A DNA stretch of 45,076 nt, from contig CAKZMM010000024.1 in the NCBI GenBank assembly GCA_937128505.1, positions 1 to 45,076 of the forward strand, read 5' to 3'. Made by a program: the position numbers and the translations under genes. A model generated the notes under the pieces. That model was not told the origin of the DNA and did not search any database. It saw only the letters and a list, made by a program, of their open reading frames with translations. Shown one piece after another: positions 34,483 through 42,395 of the stretch (position 1 is the stretch's first letter; each line of letters starts with the position of its first letter). Source of the stretch: an uncultured Thermogutta sp. Its GTDB lineage: Bacteria; Planctomycetota; Planctomycetia; Pirellulales; Thermoguttaceae.

Positions 34483-37137
34483 TTAATCCCGCGAGATACG
34501 TTCGCGCAACTGACCCATCTGGTCCCGAAGCTCGCGAACCTGGGCACCAAGTTCCTCAATCGCCTGCTTCAAAACTTGAAGCTCCCCGAGCAAGTCTCGC
34601 GGTGGACCGGCTCCCGGCCTTGGGCCCGCAGGCGGAACCATTACTGGAGGTACTGGTTCGCCTCGAAGCCGGCGTAGGGTCATCTCTACTGCCGCCGCTT
34701 GCTCCATCAAGCCGGCAGCCCGCAGATGCTCAATAGCCGCCTCCAAATGATGGATCCGCCGCTCGCGCTCCTCGGGGGGCATCTGTGCGACGCGCGGTGG
34801 CACCGGGGGAATGCCCGGTTCAGGCCGCCCTTCGATCCGCGGACGCCGTTGTTCCGCCTCGCGTTCTAGTCTTTCAAGCTCTGCTGTTACTCGCTCAATC
34901 TGCTGTCGCAATTCTGCTATTCGACCCTCCGCTCGTTCATGTTCCGCCCGAGCTAATTGCTCTCGCAATTCTGCCATATGCCGACGCAATCGTTCCATTG
35001 CGACGATCGGGCGCTGGGGTTCCCTCTGTTGCAATTCAGCCAGCCGGGCCTGAATCTCGCGCAATTCCCTTTCAAGCTGCTCTGCCCGATCCGGTCGCTC
35101 CCTGCCGATCCGCGCTAATTCCTCCCGCAGCTCCGCCGCACGCTGCTCGAGTTTCCGCCGCAGCTCAACCACTTCGGGCGGAGGACCTGGAGCTCTTCGT
35201 GCCTCCGGTGGCGGCTCGCGACGCTCGCCCTCACGCTCATGGGGCGGTCGATCCCGGCGCTCGCCTTCGCGACCGGGCCCCGCCGGGCGGTCAGGTCGCT
35301 CTGCTCGGTCGGGACGATCCGGGTGTTCCGGCCGATCCGGACGATCACCCTCTCGAGGACCCCTTGCTTCCGGCTGGTCGGGTTGTTCCCGCTCTTGCAC
35401 GGCTGCAAAAACTCCCGTCGAATCCGAAGATCCTACGCCCGGAAGGCCCGTCATCCATTCGCTCGGACCTCCAATCACTGTAAGACAACTCAAGACGGCC
35501 GCACCTAGGAGCGTACGTTCCCAAAAATGCTGTCCGATTTTCATCTCTGACTCTCCTTGCACTTTGAGCCACTTTACACGCACACCGCCGACACAACCCA
35601 CACTACCCACCGCTAGAGTGCCGATCAAAGCCAAGGCGACCAGCCTCCGCACTCCGCTCAATTTTTGGGGAGTCGATCCCCTTTTTGCCAAAGCTACAAG
35701 CCGTTTTACACGCCGGGCAAAAAACGATCGATTGTGCCCTAAAGAGAGAGCCATACCGGCCGGGGCCAACCAAAGCCGCCGGCATTCCCGCCCATATCGA
35801 AGCAGTATGTCCGCTAAAAGGATCGGTCCGTTGGGCAGGGCGGTCACGGCTTCGTCCGCAGCAAGCTCACTACTTTTCCGCAAATAAACCCCCAAAAGCC
35901 AAGCAAAAGGATTCCACCATTGAAATGCGGCGGCAAACCGAGCAAGCATCTGCCACCAAGGATCCCCCGCCGCTAAATGAGCCAACTCGTGGACCAGAAT
36001 GGCCTGGCACTGCTCCGTGCGAAATTGCTTTTCGAAACTTTGAGGAATAATCAGTGTCGGATATCGTAGGCCAAAAGCTGCCGGTACCTCGAGCCACGAG
36101 CTTATCAGTACCCGTACGGGTCGCTTCAAGCCAACCTCGCGAGCTATTTGGCTTACCTGGAGGCGAAGCTCCGCCGAGCATCCTTCAACCGCCTTCCGCC
36201 GTACGATGGCTAAGATAACTCGACCCAGCGTAAGCCAAGCCAAACACACTCCAACCCCAAAAAGCCAAATTCGGCCAACCCACAGGGCAACCCACATTCC
36301 AATGTCAAAAAGACCAATAGCCTTTTTCGCTCGGCTGTTGAGTGGTTCCGCAAAAGCAGACGGATCTTCCGCAATTGATAAACCGTTGGTAGAGGCAAGC
36401 TCCATCGCTTCCGGTGCTTGGGGCAGTTTCGGTTGCTCCGTACCCTGGCTTGATACGTTGCTCCCAGACTCAGAATCAAACGATATGACCTCGTTCCCGA
36501 AAAGCGTTCCCAGTCCAGGATCCTTAACCAGAGGGACTGCACCGGGCAAAGCTGGTTTAAGATCGCTTGAGGCTCGAGGCGGTATCTCTCCGCCCCCAAG
36601 CGTCGAGGAGGACCTCCTTGAAATCTTCCCTGCAAGTGTCTCCCAAACTTCGGCCTGACGACTTTCGGCTCCAACCGTACCCGCCCTTAGAAAAAAGCCG
36701 TCAAAACCAGCCTCGCTACGTGCGTAAGGTGGATTGGGTTCCCAGGAGTCGACCCACAGGTGGCCGGATTCAGATTTAAGACTCATTCGCGGCAACTCAG
36801 GCCCTCTTGAAGCCGAATTCGCGGCGGAATGAGCGTTGGGTGCAGCGCGAAAGCCGGGTGTTTCCTCGATAGTTGGGCCCCATTGAGAAGCTGAACGAAG
36901 CTGATCTTCCCCGCTTAACTTGCTAGACAATGTCCACGCCACAAGCCAACTGAGGCCACTGATCTCCAAAATGAGAAGGAGCCAAAGCCCTACCACTCCA
37001 CCCCGCCAACAGCTCCGTTGCCACTGAGCGTTGGCGCAGAGACGACCCAAAAGCCCCGCCGCCAAAAAAACTAAGCCGCCTCCCCCCAAGAGCACACCCG
37101 CGGACACGATCGCTGTTTCCGTCAGTGTAGCTGTCAC
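34483..37137 (-). CDS. M56 (BlaR1-like) membrane metalloprotease fused to a coiled-coil domain
   Basis: This 884-residue protein starts at GTG 37137 (GAGG eight bases upstream). Two membrane segments (about residues 10-32 and 47-70), a long polar loop to about 275, and a third segment (MWVALWVGRIWLFGVGVCLAWL) precede the zinc protease domain. HELAH at 383-387 and the downstream ELAADEAV are the M56 zinc-site motifs. A fourth segment is RRLVALALIGTLAVGSVGC. In BlaR1 this protease cleaves the BlaI repressor when an outside sensor fires. Here the part after the fourth segment is not a beta-lactam sensor. From residue 532 there is a new signal-like start, a Pro/Arg/Asp/Glu-rich stretch of RPDRPE-like iterations and about 200 residues of coiled coil. 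A BlaI-type gene lies just upstream on the same strand, supporting a protease-repressor pair. Confidence 0.85.
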   Translation of the reverse strand: MTATLTETAIVSAGVLLGGGGLVFLAAGLLGRLCANAQWQRSCWRGGVVGLWLLLILEISGLSWLVAWTLSSKLSGEDQLRSASQWGPTIEETPGFRAAPNAHSAANSASRGPELPRMSLKSESGHLWVDSWEPNPPYARSEAGFDGFFLRAGTVGAESRQAEVWETLAGKISRRSSSTLGGGEIPPRASSDLKPALPGAVPLVKDPGLGTLFGNEVISFDSESGSNVSSQGTEQPKLPQAPEAMELASTNGLSIAEDPSAFAEPLNSRAKKAIGLFDIGMWVALWVGRIWLFGVGVCLAWLTLGRVILAIVRRKAVEGCSAELRLQVSQIAREVGLKRPVRVLISSWLEVPAAFGLRYPTLIIPQSFEKQFRTEQCQAILVHELAHLAAGDPWWQMLARFAAAFQWWNPFAWLLGVYLRKSSELAADEAVTALPNGPILLADILLRYGRECRRLWLAPAGMALSLGHNRSFFARRVKRLVALAKRGSTPQKLSGVRRLVALALIGTLAVGSVGCVGGVRVKWLKVQGESEMKIGQHFWERTLLGAAVLSCLTVIGGPSEWMTGLPGVGSSDSTGVFAAVQEREQPDQPEARGPREGDRPDRPEHPDRPDRAERPDRPAGPGREGERRDRPPHEREGERREPPPEARRAPGPPPEVVELRRKLEQRAAELREELARIGRERPDRAEQLERELREIQARLAELQQREPQRPIVAMERLRRHMAELREQLARAEHERAEGRIAELRQQIERVTAELERLEREAEQRRPRIEGRPEPGIPPVPPRVAQMPPEERERRIHHLEAAIEHLRAAGLMEQAAAVEMTLRRLRGEPVPPVMVPPAGPRPGAGPPRDLLGELQVLKQAIEELGAQVRELRDQMGQLRERISRD
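35544..35558 (-). promoter_or_regulatory. Internal ribosome binding site and start inside the M56 gene
   Basis: AAGGAG (35558-35553) lies exactly eight bases before an in-frame ATG (35544-35542). The ATG opens a 353-residue segment that begins like a signal peptide (MKIGQHFWERTLLGAAVLSCL). This suggests either that the coiled-coil domain was once a separate gene whose upstream stop was lost, or that it is also made on its own from the same message. Confidence 0.55.
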
Positions 37138-37283
37138 GGCCGAGGCCTCGCGGGCATAGAGTCCCTAGAATCTTCTCCAAACGCCGGGAATGCCACGATG
37201 GATGGCCCCACCACAAAGCGTGGAACCAGAGCCATATTTGTAGTCGAACCCGTTTGTGAGTAAGTCGGAGGATTGACTTCGCC

Positions 37284-37329
37284 GAAGAAATCTTCCTTAA
37301 ATGACGCTGAAGAAATCTTCCTTAAATGA
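37284..37329. repeat. 21-base direct repeat, 25-base period
   Basis: Two identical copies (37284-37304, 37309-37329) each contain the near-palindrome GAAGA-AA-TCTTC. They lie 147-192 bases upstream of the M56 start, where tandem operators could act, but no binding protein can be named. Confidence 0.7.
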
Positions 37330-37582: not shown

Positions 37583-37671
37583 GTTCTCCCCATGATCGCG
37601 GGGGCAAAGCCTATCTCAGGGAAGATGATCGCGCGCTGGGTAGGTTCTCCCCATGATCGCGGGGGCAAAGC
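37583..37671. repeat. 28-base perfect direct repeat pair, 61-base period
   Basis: The copies at 37583-37610 and 37644-37671 are identical, with the core CCATGATCGCGGGGGCAAAG. A partial third match (GATGATCGCGCG) lies between them. They begin ten bases after the end of the blaI-like gene on its downstream side. Confidence 0.8.
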
Positions 37672-37680
37672 ACACTCAAA

Positions 37681-38085
37681 TCATGGTTCTCGCGGCCCCC
37701 GCTTGCCCGCCGATTCTTTATGGGCACGAATTAGTCTCTCGAGCTCATCCAATTCCTGGGCACTGACCTGGGGGCTTTCCAGCAAGAAACTTACCGCCGT
37801 GGCCAAACTGCCGTGAAACAACCGATGGAACAAATCTTGAATCATTCCGCGGGAGACCTCGTTTTCGCTGACCAACGGCTGATACACTAATCGCCGCTGT
37901 ACCCTACAATGCCGTACGAGGTTTCGGGCCTCCATCTTACGGAGCATCGTCGCGACGGTCGTATATGCCCATCGCTGCCCCAGTTGCCGATGAACCTCCC
38001 CCACAGTGGCTGGACCGTGCGACCACAAGATTTGGAGGATTTTGAGTTGAAGGTCCCCCAACCGGAATTTCCGTCCTGATTCCAT
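37681..38085 (-). CDS. BlaI/MecI-family transcriptional repressor
   Basis: This 134-residue winged-helix repressor has the family layout. The N-terminal DNA-binding domain is LGDLQLKILQILWSHGPATVGEVHRQLG, the recognition helix is YTTVATMLRKMEARNLV, and the wing is RLVYQPLVS. A C-terminal dimer part follows. BlaI/MecI proteins repress their own gene and their targets until an M56 protease cleaves them. The ATG at 38085 was chosen because GGAG lies nine bases upstream and the family starts just before LGDLQ. The gene has a strong promoter with inverted repeats overlapping it, so self-repression is likely. The partner M56 protease follows downstream. What it senses is unknown; no beta-lactamase is in the window. 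Confidence 0.93.
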   Translation of the reverse strand: MESGRKFRLGDLQLKILQILWSHGPATVGEVHRQLGQRWAYTTVATMLRKMEARNLVRHCRVQRRLVYQPLVSENEVSRGMIQDLFHRLFHGSLATAVSFLLESPQVSAQELDELERLIRAHKESAGKRGPREP

Positions 38086-38103
38086 GCTCTTTTGCTCCAA
38101 ATC

Positions 38104-38145
38104 TACTACCACAGTAATACTACCAAGGTAGCAAAAAGTTGTCAA
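38104..38145 (-). promoter_or_regulatory. Promoter and putative operator of the BlaI-like gene
   Basis: On the minus strand TTGACA (38145-38140) and TAGTAT (38122-38117) are separated by exactly 17 bases, a near-ideal housekeeping promoter giving a leader of about 25 bases. Two inverted repeats overlap it: CTACC-AA-GGTAG (plus strand, 38120-38131) across the -10 end of the spacer, and TACT-N5-AGTA (38104-38116) at the start site. TACTA-like arms recall BlaI/MecI operators, so binding by the gene's own product is inferred. Confidence 0.65.
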
Positions 38146-38624
38146 CTGGCACGTGGGGTTTTCTTTAGTAACTGTACCGATCCCAACCGTTCAGTTGGCC
38201 GACAAAAAGCGGAATAGTCTTGGGCGAAACGTTCGTTTGATTTACCGAAAGTATCTCTGGATAAGCCAGCTCTTCTCAAATCCAACGATTTAAAACAATT
38301 GCGATGATTCGCATACTCTTTTTTATCCCATTCGATAAAGTCGAGCCCCTTAACCGAGAATCAAAAGATCAGACTGCGGATTTCATAAAAACATTATCCC
38401 GTCAAATTAGACGCTGGTATTACAGATGGCAACTTTCTTTCCGTGGGACACATGTCGGCAAAACGCCCGAAAGCCGTAATCTCTATGGCCATCGGCCTTT
38501 TTTTGAGTCCACAATCGTTCAGTATGCTCAAGATCGTAAATTGCGAAACTGTCACGAGTTACGGTTTTCTAAAACTAATATGCTCCGCCGGCAGGCAGAC
38601 TTCCAGGCTTCAAACGGCCCAAGT

Positions 38625-39241: not shown

Positions 39242-40666
39242 CTAAAGCACGGGGCTGAGCAATTTCGCAATCCCGTCCAAAGTCTTAGCCCATTCAGGTC
39301 GATTTTCCCATTCTTCTAGCGTAAGGCGTGTAGAGCGTGCCAAGTACTGCCGTTGCACAACCCGTAATGTTTCGGTCACCTCCGTCCCATAGAGCAACAG
39401 GTTCAATTCGAAAGTTAGACTGAACGAGCGGATATCGAAGTTGCCCGTCCCCACGAATGCAAAGCTGTCGTCGATGGTCATGGTCTTTGAGTGAAGGAGA
39501 CCAGGATGATACAGGTACACTTCGGCCCCCAATTGGAGAAGGTCCCCAAAATACGACCGAGCAGCAGCTCCTACTAGCACCTTATCGCAGACGGCGGGGG
39601 CAATGAGCACCACATTCACTCCGCGAAGCACCGCCACTTGCACGGCTTGAAGGAAAGACTCGTCGGGCACAAAGTACGGAGTTGTGATGATGACCTGACG
39701 CCGGGCGGTATGAAGAGCCGCAAGAACCATTCGGTGATAGTTTTCAACCGGGTAGATGGGGCCACTCGGTAGGACCTGAATCGGCGTGTTGCCTGCCGGT
39801 GGGGTCCGCGGAAAAATCTCTGCATCAGTCAGGGTTTGCTCTGTCTCGAAATACCAGTCGCATAAAAACACGGATTGCAACGCCAGTACCGTTGGTCCGA
39901 GGACCCGCGCCGTCAGATCGTGCCAGGCTAACCCCCTCCGCCCGTAATCGGCATTGATGATGTTCTGTGAGCCCGTGTATGCAATTCGTCCATCAATCAC
40001 GACGATTTTTCGATGATTTCGCACATCAATCCGCGCCATTTTGCCGCGAAACACCCCCACGGGAAGGGCCGGAACCACTTCGATCCCCATCTTCGGTAAT
40101 TCTGATCCCAAGCCCCGAAGGAAACTGCGGGATCCAACCGCATCCACCAAGAGTCGACATTTCGCGCCGCGTTCCGAGGCCCGACGCAGTGCTTCAATGA
40201 CTCGTCGTCCCGTCTCATCGGCAGCAAAAATGTAGTACAGCATGTGCACGTGCGATTGTGCGGTGTCGATATCGGCGATCAAGCGGTTGACCATTTCGTC
40301 GGTGTCGGTGATCAATTCCACACGATTACCACCCAGAATAGGAAATTGGCCTAAACGCTCCGCTAAACGCACGGCCGACATCGCCTCGGGATCAAGTTGG
40401 GGCTCGACGATATTGGCCTGAGAACAAAATTCTTGAGTTATCTGATTGAACTCGGAAATCATCAATCGATATCGCTCTACCCGGCGGCGGGGCAGGCCTC
40501 GGGTACCAGCGATCAAAAATAGAAACAACCCTATCCAAGGGACAAAAAAGATAATCAGCAACCAGGCGATAGCGGTCGTCGGATTTCGTTTTCGCGGTAC
40601 CACATACAGCATTACCAGTCGAATGATCCACTCGCTAAGGTATGTCAAGAAAGACCACGAAATCAT
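39242..40666 (-). CDS. cls: Cardiolipin synthase (phospholipase D family)
   Basis: It joins two phosphatidylglycerol molecules to make cardiolipin at the inner membrane. The 474-residue protein starts with two membrane segments (FLTYLSEWIIRLVMLYVV and TTAIAWLLIIFFVPWIGLFLFLIAG). Two phospholipase D HKD motifs follow: His218-x-Lys220-x4-Asp225 in NHRKIVVIDGRIAYTGSQN, and His392-x-Lys394-x4-Asp399 in LHSKTMTIDDSFAFVGTGN. The ATG at 40666 was chosen because GAGG lies four bases upstream and the first membrane segment follows directly; a longer frame to 40756 adds 30 residues without family likeness. It stands alone between two long spacers. Confidence 0.94.
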   Translation of the reverse strand: MISWSFLTYLSEWIIRLVMLYVVPRKRNPTTAIAWLLIIFFVPWIGLFLFLIAGTRGLPRRRVERYRLMISEFNQITQEFCSQANIVEPQLDPEAMSAVRLAERLGQFPILGGNRVELITDTDEMVNRLIADIDTAQSHVHMLYYIFAADETGRRVIEALRRASERGAKCRLLVDAVGSRSFLRGLGSELPKMGIEVVPALPVGVFRGKMARIDVRNHRKIVVIDGRIAYTGSQNIINADYGRRGLAWHDLTARVLGPTVLALQSVFLCDWYFETEQTLTDAEIFPRTPPAGNTPIQVLPSGPIYPVENYHRMVLAALHTARRQVIITTPYFVPDESFLQAVQVAVLRGVNVVLIAPAVCDKVLVGAAARSYFGDLLQLGAEVYLYHPGLLHSKTMTIDDSFAFVGTGNFDIRSFSLTFELNLLLYGTEVTETLRVVQRQYLARSTRLTLEEWENRPEWAKTLDGIAKLLSPVL

Positions 40667-42395
40667 GGTGCCTCGCCTACACGTGGGTTGAACCCCGTGG
40701 CAAAGGGAAGGTACTAAGGGGACTATCAGCGGACTGTACGGGAACCGTTTTAACAATCTTCAAGTTAAAGCGGTAGCCTCCAAAAAGGCGACACTTCCAT
40801 TCGGAATCAAAAACTGCGAGCACTTATCTTCGCAGCTTGCCGAGGTGAGGAAGGGCACACCACCGCGGGAGTGCCCCTCTCATGGAGCTCCAAACCCACT
40901 CCCGCACTGTCTAGGCATAAGCACATACAGCGTAAACGGCTGCCGGGAGGCTTCCTCTTGTTTGCACTCGAGAGGATCTCGACCGCAACCTACTGCGGCC
41001 TAAAAAAGCCATCAGCCCATTAGTCTTTATTCTCGTCTTGGTAAGCTTGGTGGAGAAGAAGGCTCCTATGGACTCACCCCCAAAGGCGATAATCAGTCGA
41101 CTGATTATTCGCGGGTTTCCACCTCCCCGCCTCTTGCGCCCCTTGACTCTAAGTTTTTGATCTTCTACACCGCCGACGGGTGTCCAACCGGCGATACTTG
41201 CGGTTGACGATCGACTTCTAACAGATTTCGATTCTGATATTGTCAACCATGCTCACCTGGCGATGCACGGAAATGCAGATCTGGAATGAGTTAGAAAGTT
41301 GAGGGATTTAACGCTTTCAAACAGGCGGCAATTCGTCCGTAGCGCTTTGCAAGTTGGCCGGTCATCATCCTCCTCGAACTGAGGACCACCCATGGGGTAA
41401 CGTCCGCGCATCATTGCCGAGCAAGTCACCGTTACATCTAATTCAAAGTGCGGGATGGACCAATAGCTTGGTGTAGATCGGAACATCGAATCAATGGGCA
41501 ACTTGGGAAGGAAATTTTGAGGTAAATAAGCATTCCCCCAGGTGCGCGACGGTAACTTCGGCTAGCCAAAACTGTGATGATAGGCGATCGGGCTTCTGTC
41601 GAACGATAAGCGAACCCGTTCAACACCGGAGGACGCCGCTTTCATCACCACGTTAATGGTACAACTAACATATTGCGGTTGCCGAATGATCCAGAAAACA
41701 GGGAAGCTTGTGACGTTTTCAGCTAGAAAGCCGTCTAGCAAGCACCACCAGAGAAAAGCATACAAGAATTGCTTATAAATTTTTGAGGAAAACTTTAACC
41801 GCATTTATGAAGCTGGTTGGAATTGCTTACCAAAAGAAAAAGAATTTTGGAAAAATTCACGTGTAAGACCTTCCGCCAACGCGATACGTTAGTTCGTAAA
41901 AGAAGTGATATTTAGAATTCTCAAGAATCTTTCCACATCTTCCTTCAAAATAGTGGCCATCTTAAGGGAATTCGACGGCTCCAGCCGTCTGAAACGCAGA
42001 CCTTTTTTGCTTCCCGAGAGATAACCCATAACTTTCACGAGCAGGTGATCTAACACCCGTGAGCGCTCTTTTACGGACGTTTGCTTTTTCGCAACGGATT
42101 TTAGGATCTGTTGTTTTGGATTTGGGGATGTGAATTGACAAATCTTCGGCCAAAACCGATTTGTAGTGGCCCGCGATGCTCGGTCTGAATTTTTAATAAG
42201 CGAGATCGATCTAAATCCCGATTGCGACTCCACCAGTATTTGCTATGATTCAGATACGGAAAGCTCAACCAATCGAGTGAGCAAGTTTACTGACGATTGT
42301 TTGGGTAACTGATAAGGATTTCGGAGTTTGACAACCTGGCACGTGCGCCGGGAAAGGCCGGTGCGGACTGAACTATTGGATCGCGAAAGGTACCG
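40667..42395. other. 1.7 kb spacer without a convincing gene
   Basis: Several minus-strand frames of 60-115 codons lie here (for example 40911-41246 and 41889-42233), but none has a good ribosome binding site, recognisable motif or membrane segment. A small hairpin (GGGCAC with GTGCCC) is at about 40854-40876. No RNA gene was recognised. Confidence 0.4.

Follow-up and report, generated by a model that had tools for sequence, protein, structure and literature searches.

The window, a 45,076-nucleotide stretch of a contig from an uncultured Thermogutta sp. (GenBank assembly GCA_937128505.1, contig CAKZMM010000024.1), carries on its reverse strand a frame of 884 codons without a stop, which codes for an M56/BlaR1-like membrane protease with a coiled-coil tail and lies downstream of a gene for a BlaI-type repressor. 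The coordinates are collected in Table 1. The zinc motif of the protease part, HELAH (HExxH), occupies residues 383–387; H383, E384 and H387 are invariant in 15 sequences, and PF05569 is matched with E ≤ 0.001 in 15 of the 15 aligned members. The predicted membrane-protease part superimposes on S. aureus BlaR1 (8exs_A) with a Z score of 18.4 over 251 aligned residues (rmsd 3.3), compared with 11.8 for the best non-BlaR1 row, in a comparison based on an AF2 model whose mean pLDDT is 65.8 and whose confidence is low in the loop 79–259 and around 556–649. With the curated NCBIfam model blaR1_generic the protein scored 52 bits, below the cut-off of 400.

The last 353 residues consist of a low-complexity linker and long helices. 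This tail gave no Pfam match above the cut-off, and hence none to a penicillin-binding sensor domain, and is modelled as helices and coil. Matches to DUF4407, EzrA, SMC and similar families (Pfam, NCBIfam) all fell below the cut-off and were discarded, and the PDB rows obtained for the tail (Z 6 to 8.4) were taken as generic helices. A BlaI-type gene adjoins the M56 gene in all 15 loci in which the neighbourhood was examined, namely those of 12 of the 27 family members described below (one via the duplicate record L112) and of three verrucomicrobial genes.

Table 1. Features of the M56 locus, in positions of the window (all on the reverse strand)
Feature	Position	Strand	Basis
BlaI/Penicillinase_R-type repressor gene, upstream of M56 (ORF from 38145, likely ATG at 38085)	37681–38085	–	Pfam PF03965, 108 bits
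Full-length open frame, 884 aa, 97.5 kDa: M56 sensor-protease with coiled-coil domain	34483–37137	–	ORF, Pfam, fold match
Peptidase_M56 (BlaR1-type) match, residues 235–434	35836–36435	–	Pfam PF05569, 98 bits against a cut-off of 31
TM4, last membrane helix ahead of the junction (model helix 494–521)	35575–35658	–	AF2 model and hydropathy
Internal Shine-Dalgarno sequence AAGGAG	35553–35558	–	DNA read directly; Gly codon conserved
Internal in-frame start ATG	35542–35544	–	DNA read directly; aligned column conserved
Signal-peptide-like segment (n-region, W-R motif, hydrophobic core; end approximate)	35470–35544	–	Own scoring and alignment
Predicted free product, exported coiled-coil protein, 353 aa, 40.3 kDa unprocessed	34483–35544	–	Homologues and helical model

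Between TM4 and the tail, the initial annotation had pointed out a Shine-Dalgarno (SD) sequence, an ATG at eight bases from it and a signal-like sequence, all inside the M56 frame, and these are present exactly as described (35558–35542). After TM4 the protein reads KVQGESE-M-KIGQHFWERTLLGAAVLSCL, so that the internal ATG is followed by MKIGQHFWERTLLGAAVLSCLTVIGG and then by the coiled-coil tail. A profile built from ten members was searched against three overlapping samples of genomes, 396 from the order, 397 from the class and 392 from the phylum. Members were chosen as the junction-spanning matches above a visible score gap (matches reaching the junction scored at least 142 bits in the order search, where the M56 gene ranking next had 124, and a single non-member rose to 139 in the class search), plus the named contig L107 from a Pirellulaceae bacterium. 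Two loci with readable junctions were added by eye, L088, whose match to the profile ended at column 226, and L056, a contig-end fragment covering columns 130–261. L112 shares 450 identical residues with L051 and was excluded as a second record of the same gene. This resulted in 27 distinct members, from 26 genomes of 20 genera and the one named contig, some of them similar to one another over the junction (L041/L042 93%, L043/L046 87%). The frame is open through the junction in all 27, and no version split into M56 and coiled-coil genes was found among them.

ATG and GTG both serve as start codons in bacteria. In the alignment of the members, the start column is occupied by ATG in 25 of 27 and by GTG in the other two, with no other valine codon at this position. 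The glycine codon which supplies the GGA of the SD sequence is GGA in 25 of the 25 members with a glycine there, compared with 33 of 154 codons at seven other well-conserved glycine columns and an average of 21% among the remaining glycine codons of the member ORFs; the two members without this glycine (L066 and L087) are still SD-like at the DNA level. The distance from SD to start is identical in 24 of 27 members by our own scorer, L053 being counted from the GTG directly preceding the aligned ATG, which is the codon the script selected. An SD of at least 4 nt precedes the internal start in 27/27 members, a count to be read with the fact that the start-picking script itself demanded a G..M-like pattern and such an SD, and one of at least 5 nt in 23/27. 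Among the 863 other in-frame ATG or GTG codons of these members, the corresponding counts (spacing 4–9) are 91 and 19. The same sites were recovered by the alignment and by a listing of the W-R motif, which is free of any SD rule. The mRNA around the internal site is predicted to be less folded than about 90% of the windows of its own ORF (mean fraction 0.90; above 0.5 in 27/27; Wilcoxon p = 7e-9, a value which overstates independence because the members are related), and the local GC content is 50%, compared with 64%.

The segment behind the start resembles a signal peptide throughout the family, according to a crude scoring scheme of our own rather than SignalP. The n-region has a net charge of at least +1, a hydrophobic core follows it and the charge drops across the core in each of the 27 members, and the core is less hydrophobic than TM4 (mean KD19 1.29 vs 2.00). 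A signal-peptidase-like site scores at least 2 in 26 members and 3 in 16, the site of the window itself being weak. The signal peptide of the window is also among the weaker ones in other respects: its n-region carries a charge of +1, there is no clean AxA site, and the best cleavage-like site is VGS|SDS at residue 39; an AVLSC stretch within the segment could be read as a lipobox. In BlaR1, the N- and C-termini both lie outside and the sensor domain is cut off by signal peptidase, according to PMC9834060. The charges of the segment are distributed as in one that inserts from the cytoplasmic side, which in a full-length protein of this topology it would not do. Judged from the sequences, the internal start signals are real and conserved rather than a product of chance, and the start appears to be under selection, because the start column, the choice of GGA, the spacing, the low mRNA structure and the signal-peptide features all point to it.

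We therefore consider it probable (roughly 0.8) that one gene gives rise to two proteins from a single frame, an M56 sensor-protease and a free exported coiled coil. The initial annotation had raised the idea of dual products, and the conservation of the ribosome binding site, the start codon and the signal-peptide features in the 27 members supports it strongly. Ribosomes starting at about 37137 would produce the BlaR1-like membrane metalloprotease with its coiled-coil tail, and those starting at the internal AAGGAG/ATG (35544) the coiled-coil domain alone. We infer both this second initiation and the export of the short form, the latter because it would carry its own Sec-type signal peptide. 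In the scheme that we find most likely, the M56 part would cleave the neighbouring BlaI-type repressor, the tethered coiled coil could supply the sensor input from the periplasm, and its free copies could be an envelope-located form of the same domain, binding either the same partner or the tethered copies and thereby, as we propose, setting the threshold of the sensor. Competition of the free form with the tethered sensor, which had also been put forward, is only one of several possible roles.

Relatives of the tail also occur as stand-alone proteins. In two genomes of the same genus the coiled-coil protein is encoded by a separate gene (45% identity over the matched part in G002 and 44% in G001) that has an SD of its own and begins with a signal-like sequence; the roughly 20 kb around either gene gave no match to M56 or to a BlaI-type repressor. 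The gene in G002 is near one which resembles, by eye, the gene at 39242–40756 of the window, and this suggests that the two lie at the same locus. Further stand-alone homologues of the tail, with starts that look signal-like by eye, were found by profile in G165, G147, G156 and G172, where the flanks were covered for about 1.5 kb per side; similarity between coiled coils has to be read with caution in all these cases. Such stand-alone forms, like the signal-peptide features of the segment, would be expected if the tail functioned only as the free coiled coil and were attached to the M56 protein incidentally, with two genes sharing a frame. An incidental fusion should however acquire stops, and there is none between the two parts among the 27 members, so the open frame itself appears to be selected. 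We regard this explanation as unlikely, although it is the alternative which survives best.

The opposite natural control is provided by three verrucomicrobial genes (L106, L108 and L111), which are fused and have a similar hydrophobic segment, with no SD and start at that place in any of the three. L111 has a GTG there, without SD, and in L108 another in-frame ATG follows a GGAG some 20 residues upstream, where TM4 ends. The segment can thus persist without the start. Fused relatives lacking the ribosome binding site or the ATG, which the initial annotation had held to speak against its idea, are absent from the 27 members and do occur further out, in these three genes and in L206, a gene of the second subfamily described below. 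More broadly, at least eight M56 genes matching at 190–268 bits are without the layout (L106, L108, L110, L111, L113, L114 and L115, which are from Verrucomicrobia, and L109). The three fused genes are what one would predict if only the full-length protein were made throughout, the SD-like stretch serving as a pause which aids insertion of TM4 and the hydrophobic segment as an extra membrane element. A pause, however, needs no exactly spaced start codon, and the column is ATG or GTG in every member; the low mRNA structure fits an initiation site better; and the N-in charge bias, together with a hydrophobicity below that of TM4, fits a signal peptide better than a fifth helix entered from the outside. 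A full-length protein as the sole product is accordingly very improbable.

Slightly less probable still is that the internal start goes unused and that signal peptidase releases the tail from the full-length protein by cleavage behind TM4, as SpsB does with S. aureus BlaR1 (PMC9834060). Cleavage of the BlaR1 sensor is documented in the same source, and the signal-peptidase-like site scored in 26 of the 27 members would suit such a release, which nevertheless leaves the conserved codon choice in the SD and the conserved start codon unexplained. The other suggestion of the initial annotation, that a stop codon between two genes was recently lost in this genome, to which an assembly error can be added, has nothing beyond the single sequence in its favour, was not borne out when the junction region of the relatives was checked for stops, and was rejected as having a negligible chance, all 27 members from 20 genera and the named contig being fused in frame.

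The reading of two products from one gene can be compared with known systems. Like BlaR1 and MecR1, the protein described here has an M56 membrane metalloprotease fold, an adjoining BlaI-type gene and a C-terminal domain past the last membrane helix, and differs from them in that a penicillin-binding sensor domain is not matched. There is a precedent for a free sensor domain outside the cytoplasm that arises differently, since that of BlaR1 is shed by signal peptidase (PMC9834060), whereas here the free domain would come from an internal translation start and a signal peptide. Functional short forms from in-frame internal starts are known for CheA, IF2, SsaQ and CcmM, and PMC11005335 lists CheA-S/L, IF2 alpha/beta, SsaQ, CcmM and ClpB as cases; isoform ORFs have been detected by Ribo-RET, as reported in PMC9094748. 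The present gene would share with these cases the two products with a common C-terminus from one frame, and would be unlike those listed examples in that the short form gains a signal peptide and changes compartment, starting from a polytopic membrane receptor. The stand-alone coiled-coil proteins (G001, G002, G147, G156, G165 and G172) share with the tail their homology by profile and a signal-like start, but are separate genes. In the open-licence literature, no precedent was found for a nested start adding a signal peptide inside a polytopic receptor gene, no paper was found on BlaR1 with an internal start codon, and searches on BlaR1 shedding, its sensor domain and internal translation returned only the BlaR1 structure paper; for Planctomycetes with M56 or BlaR1, nothing on such a layout was among the matches listed.

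If the two-product reading is true, the receptor gene would itself provide, by translation from a nested start conserved even in its choice of codons, a soluble form of its domain, and the free sensor domain which BlaR1 obtains by proteolysis would here be written into the mRNA. Gene finders that call a single protein of 884 residues would then overlook, in every such genome, a protein that is exported, and the family would be a concrete system in which to test what such M56/BlaI pairs sense.

In order to judge how often such a layout arises, candidates combining an SD with a signal peptide were listed in 335 other ORFs (120,587 codons). The combination is rare there: 11 candidates were counted, two of them with an SD of at least 5 nt, and no fewer than four turned out to be M56 genes or a member of the family, which the regular expression for non-M56 genes had let pass. 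Under a loose criterion (SD of at least 4 nt and a signal-like stretch), 28 of 130 non-member M56 ORFs contained a candidate. The candidate lies 95–120 residues past HExxH in 17 of these, and we read the hydrophobic part there as TM4 itself, with the SD and start just ahead of it. The other 11 comprise eight genes of a group named WKN and L060, L151 and L173; L060 has an additional in-frame ATG and a signal-like stretch after TM4.

The WKN subfamily, named after a motif, comprises M56 genes whose C-terminal domain is a different one. In eight of nine full-length fused genes (L198–L206, from G119, G051, G582, G417, G438, G153, G572, G453 and G601), an in-frame ATG lies behind TM4 and opens a signal peptide of the MKxxLxTLAVLVGLTxPVAAEE type. 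The profile for this group (A2) was built from seven loci chosen for showing an internal start, and seven of the eight are those loci; of the two independent genes, L205 has the ATG and signal peptide and no SD by our scorer, and L206 has neither. The SDs are weak, with 4–5 nt in seven of the eight and none in L205. Because of how the subfamily was found, eight of nine lends weak support, and WKN is best taken as a lead that the nested-start design may recur. It is possible, though on balance doubtful, that genes for M56 sensor-proteases in this phylum repeatedly also specify, through a nested start, a free exported form of the protease's own sensor domain, the domain differing between the two subfamilies. 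Two starts on one mRNA would then fix the proportion of tethered and free domain and thereby tune when the BlaI-type repressor is cut. Stand-alone WKN proteins also exist (L207, L209). One WKN-type locus (L065, G367:C113) has a TAG inside the M56 part, its signal-peptide/WKN part being open, with GGAG and ATG; this was the only stop seen near such a match, it was kept as read or entered as X in profile searches, and the locus was considered as a split family member and rejected, as it belongs to this different gene.

The gap between the BlaI-type gene and the M56 gene is about 540 bp here, compared with about 60 bp in L188, and contains two kinds of repeat. One is a tandem pair of 25 nt, 96% alike, at 37280–37329. 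The other, just downstream of the BlaI-type gene, consists of two identical 28-nt repeats (37583–37610 and 37644–37671) spaced 61 nt apart, with a 33-nt gap between them. When up to 2 mismatches were allowed, the genome contained no further copy of the 19-nt core of these repeats, and with up to 12 mismatches the window contained no further match to the 33-nt spacer. On the same contig there are three 29-nt repeats with the same 61-nt period and a similar GGGAGAAC end, and the genome carries a type I-E Cse1 gene. The 28-nt pair between BlaI and M56 resembles an orphan CRISPR-like unit with a single spacer. Upstream of the BlaI-type gene (38085–38260), a TTGACA and a repeat-like stretch CTACCTTGGTAG...GTGGTAG were noted by eye as a possible BlaI operator.
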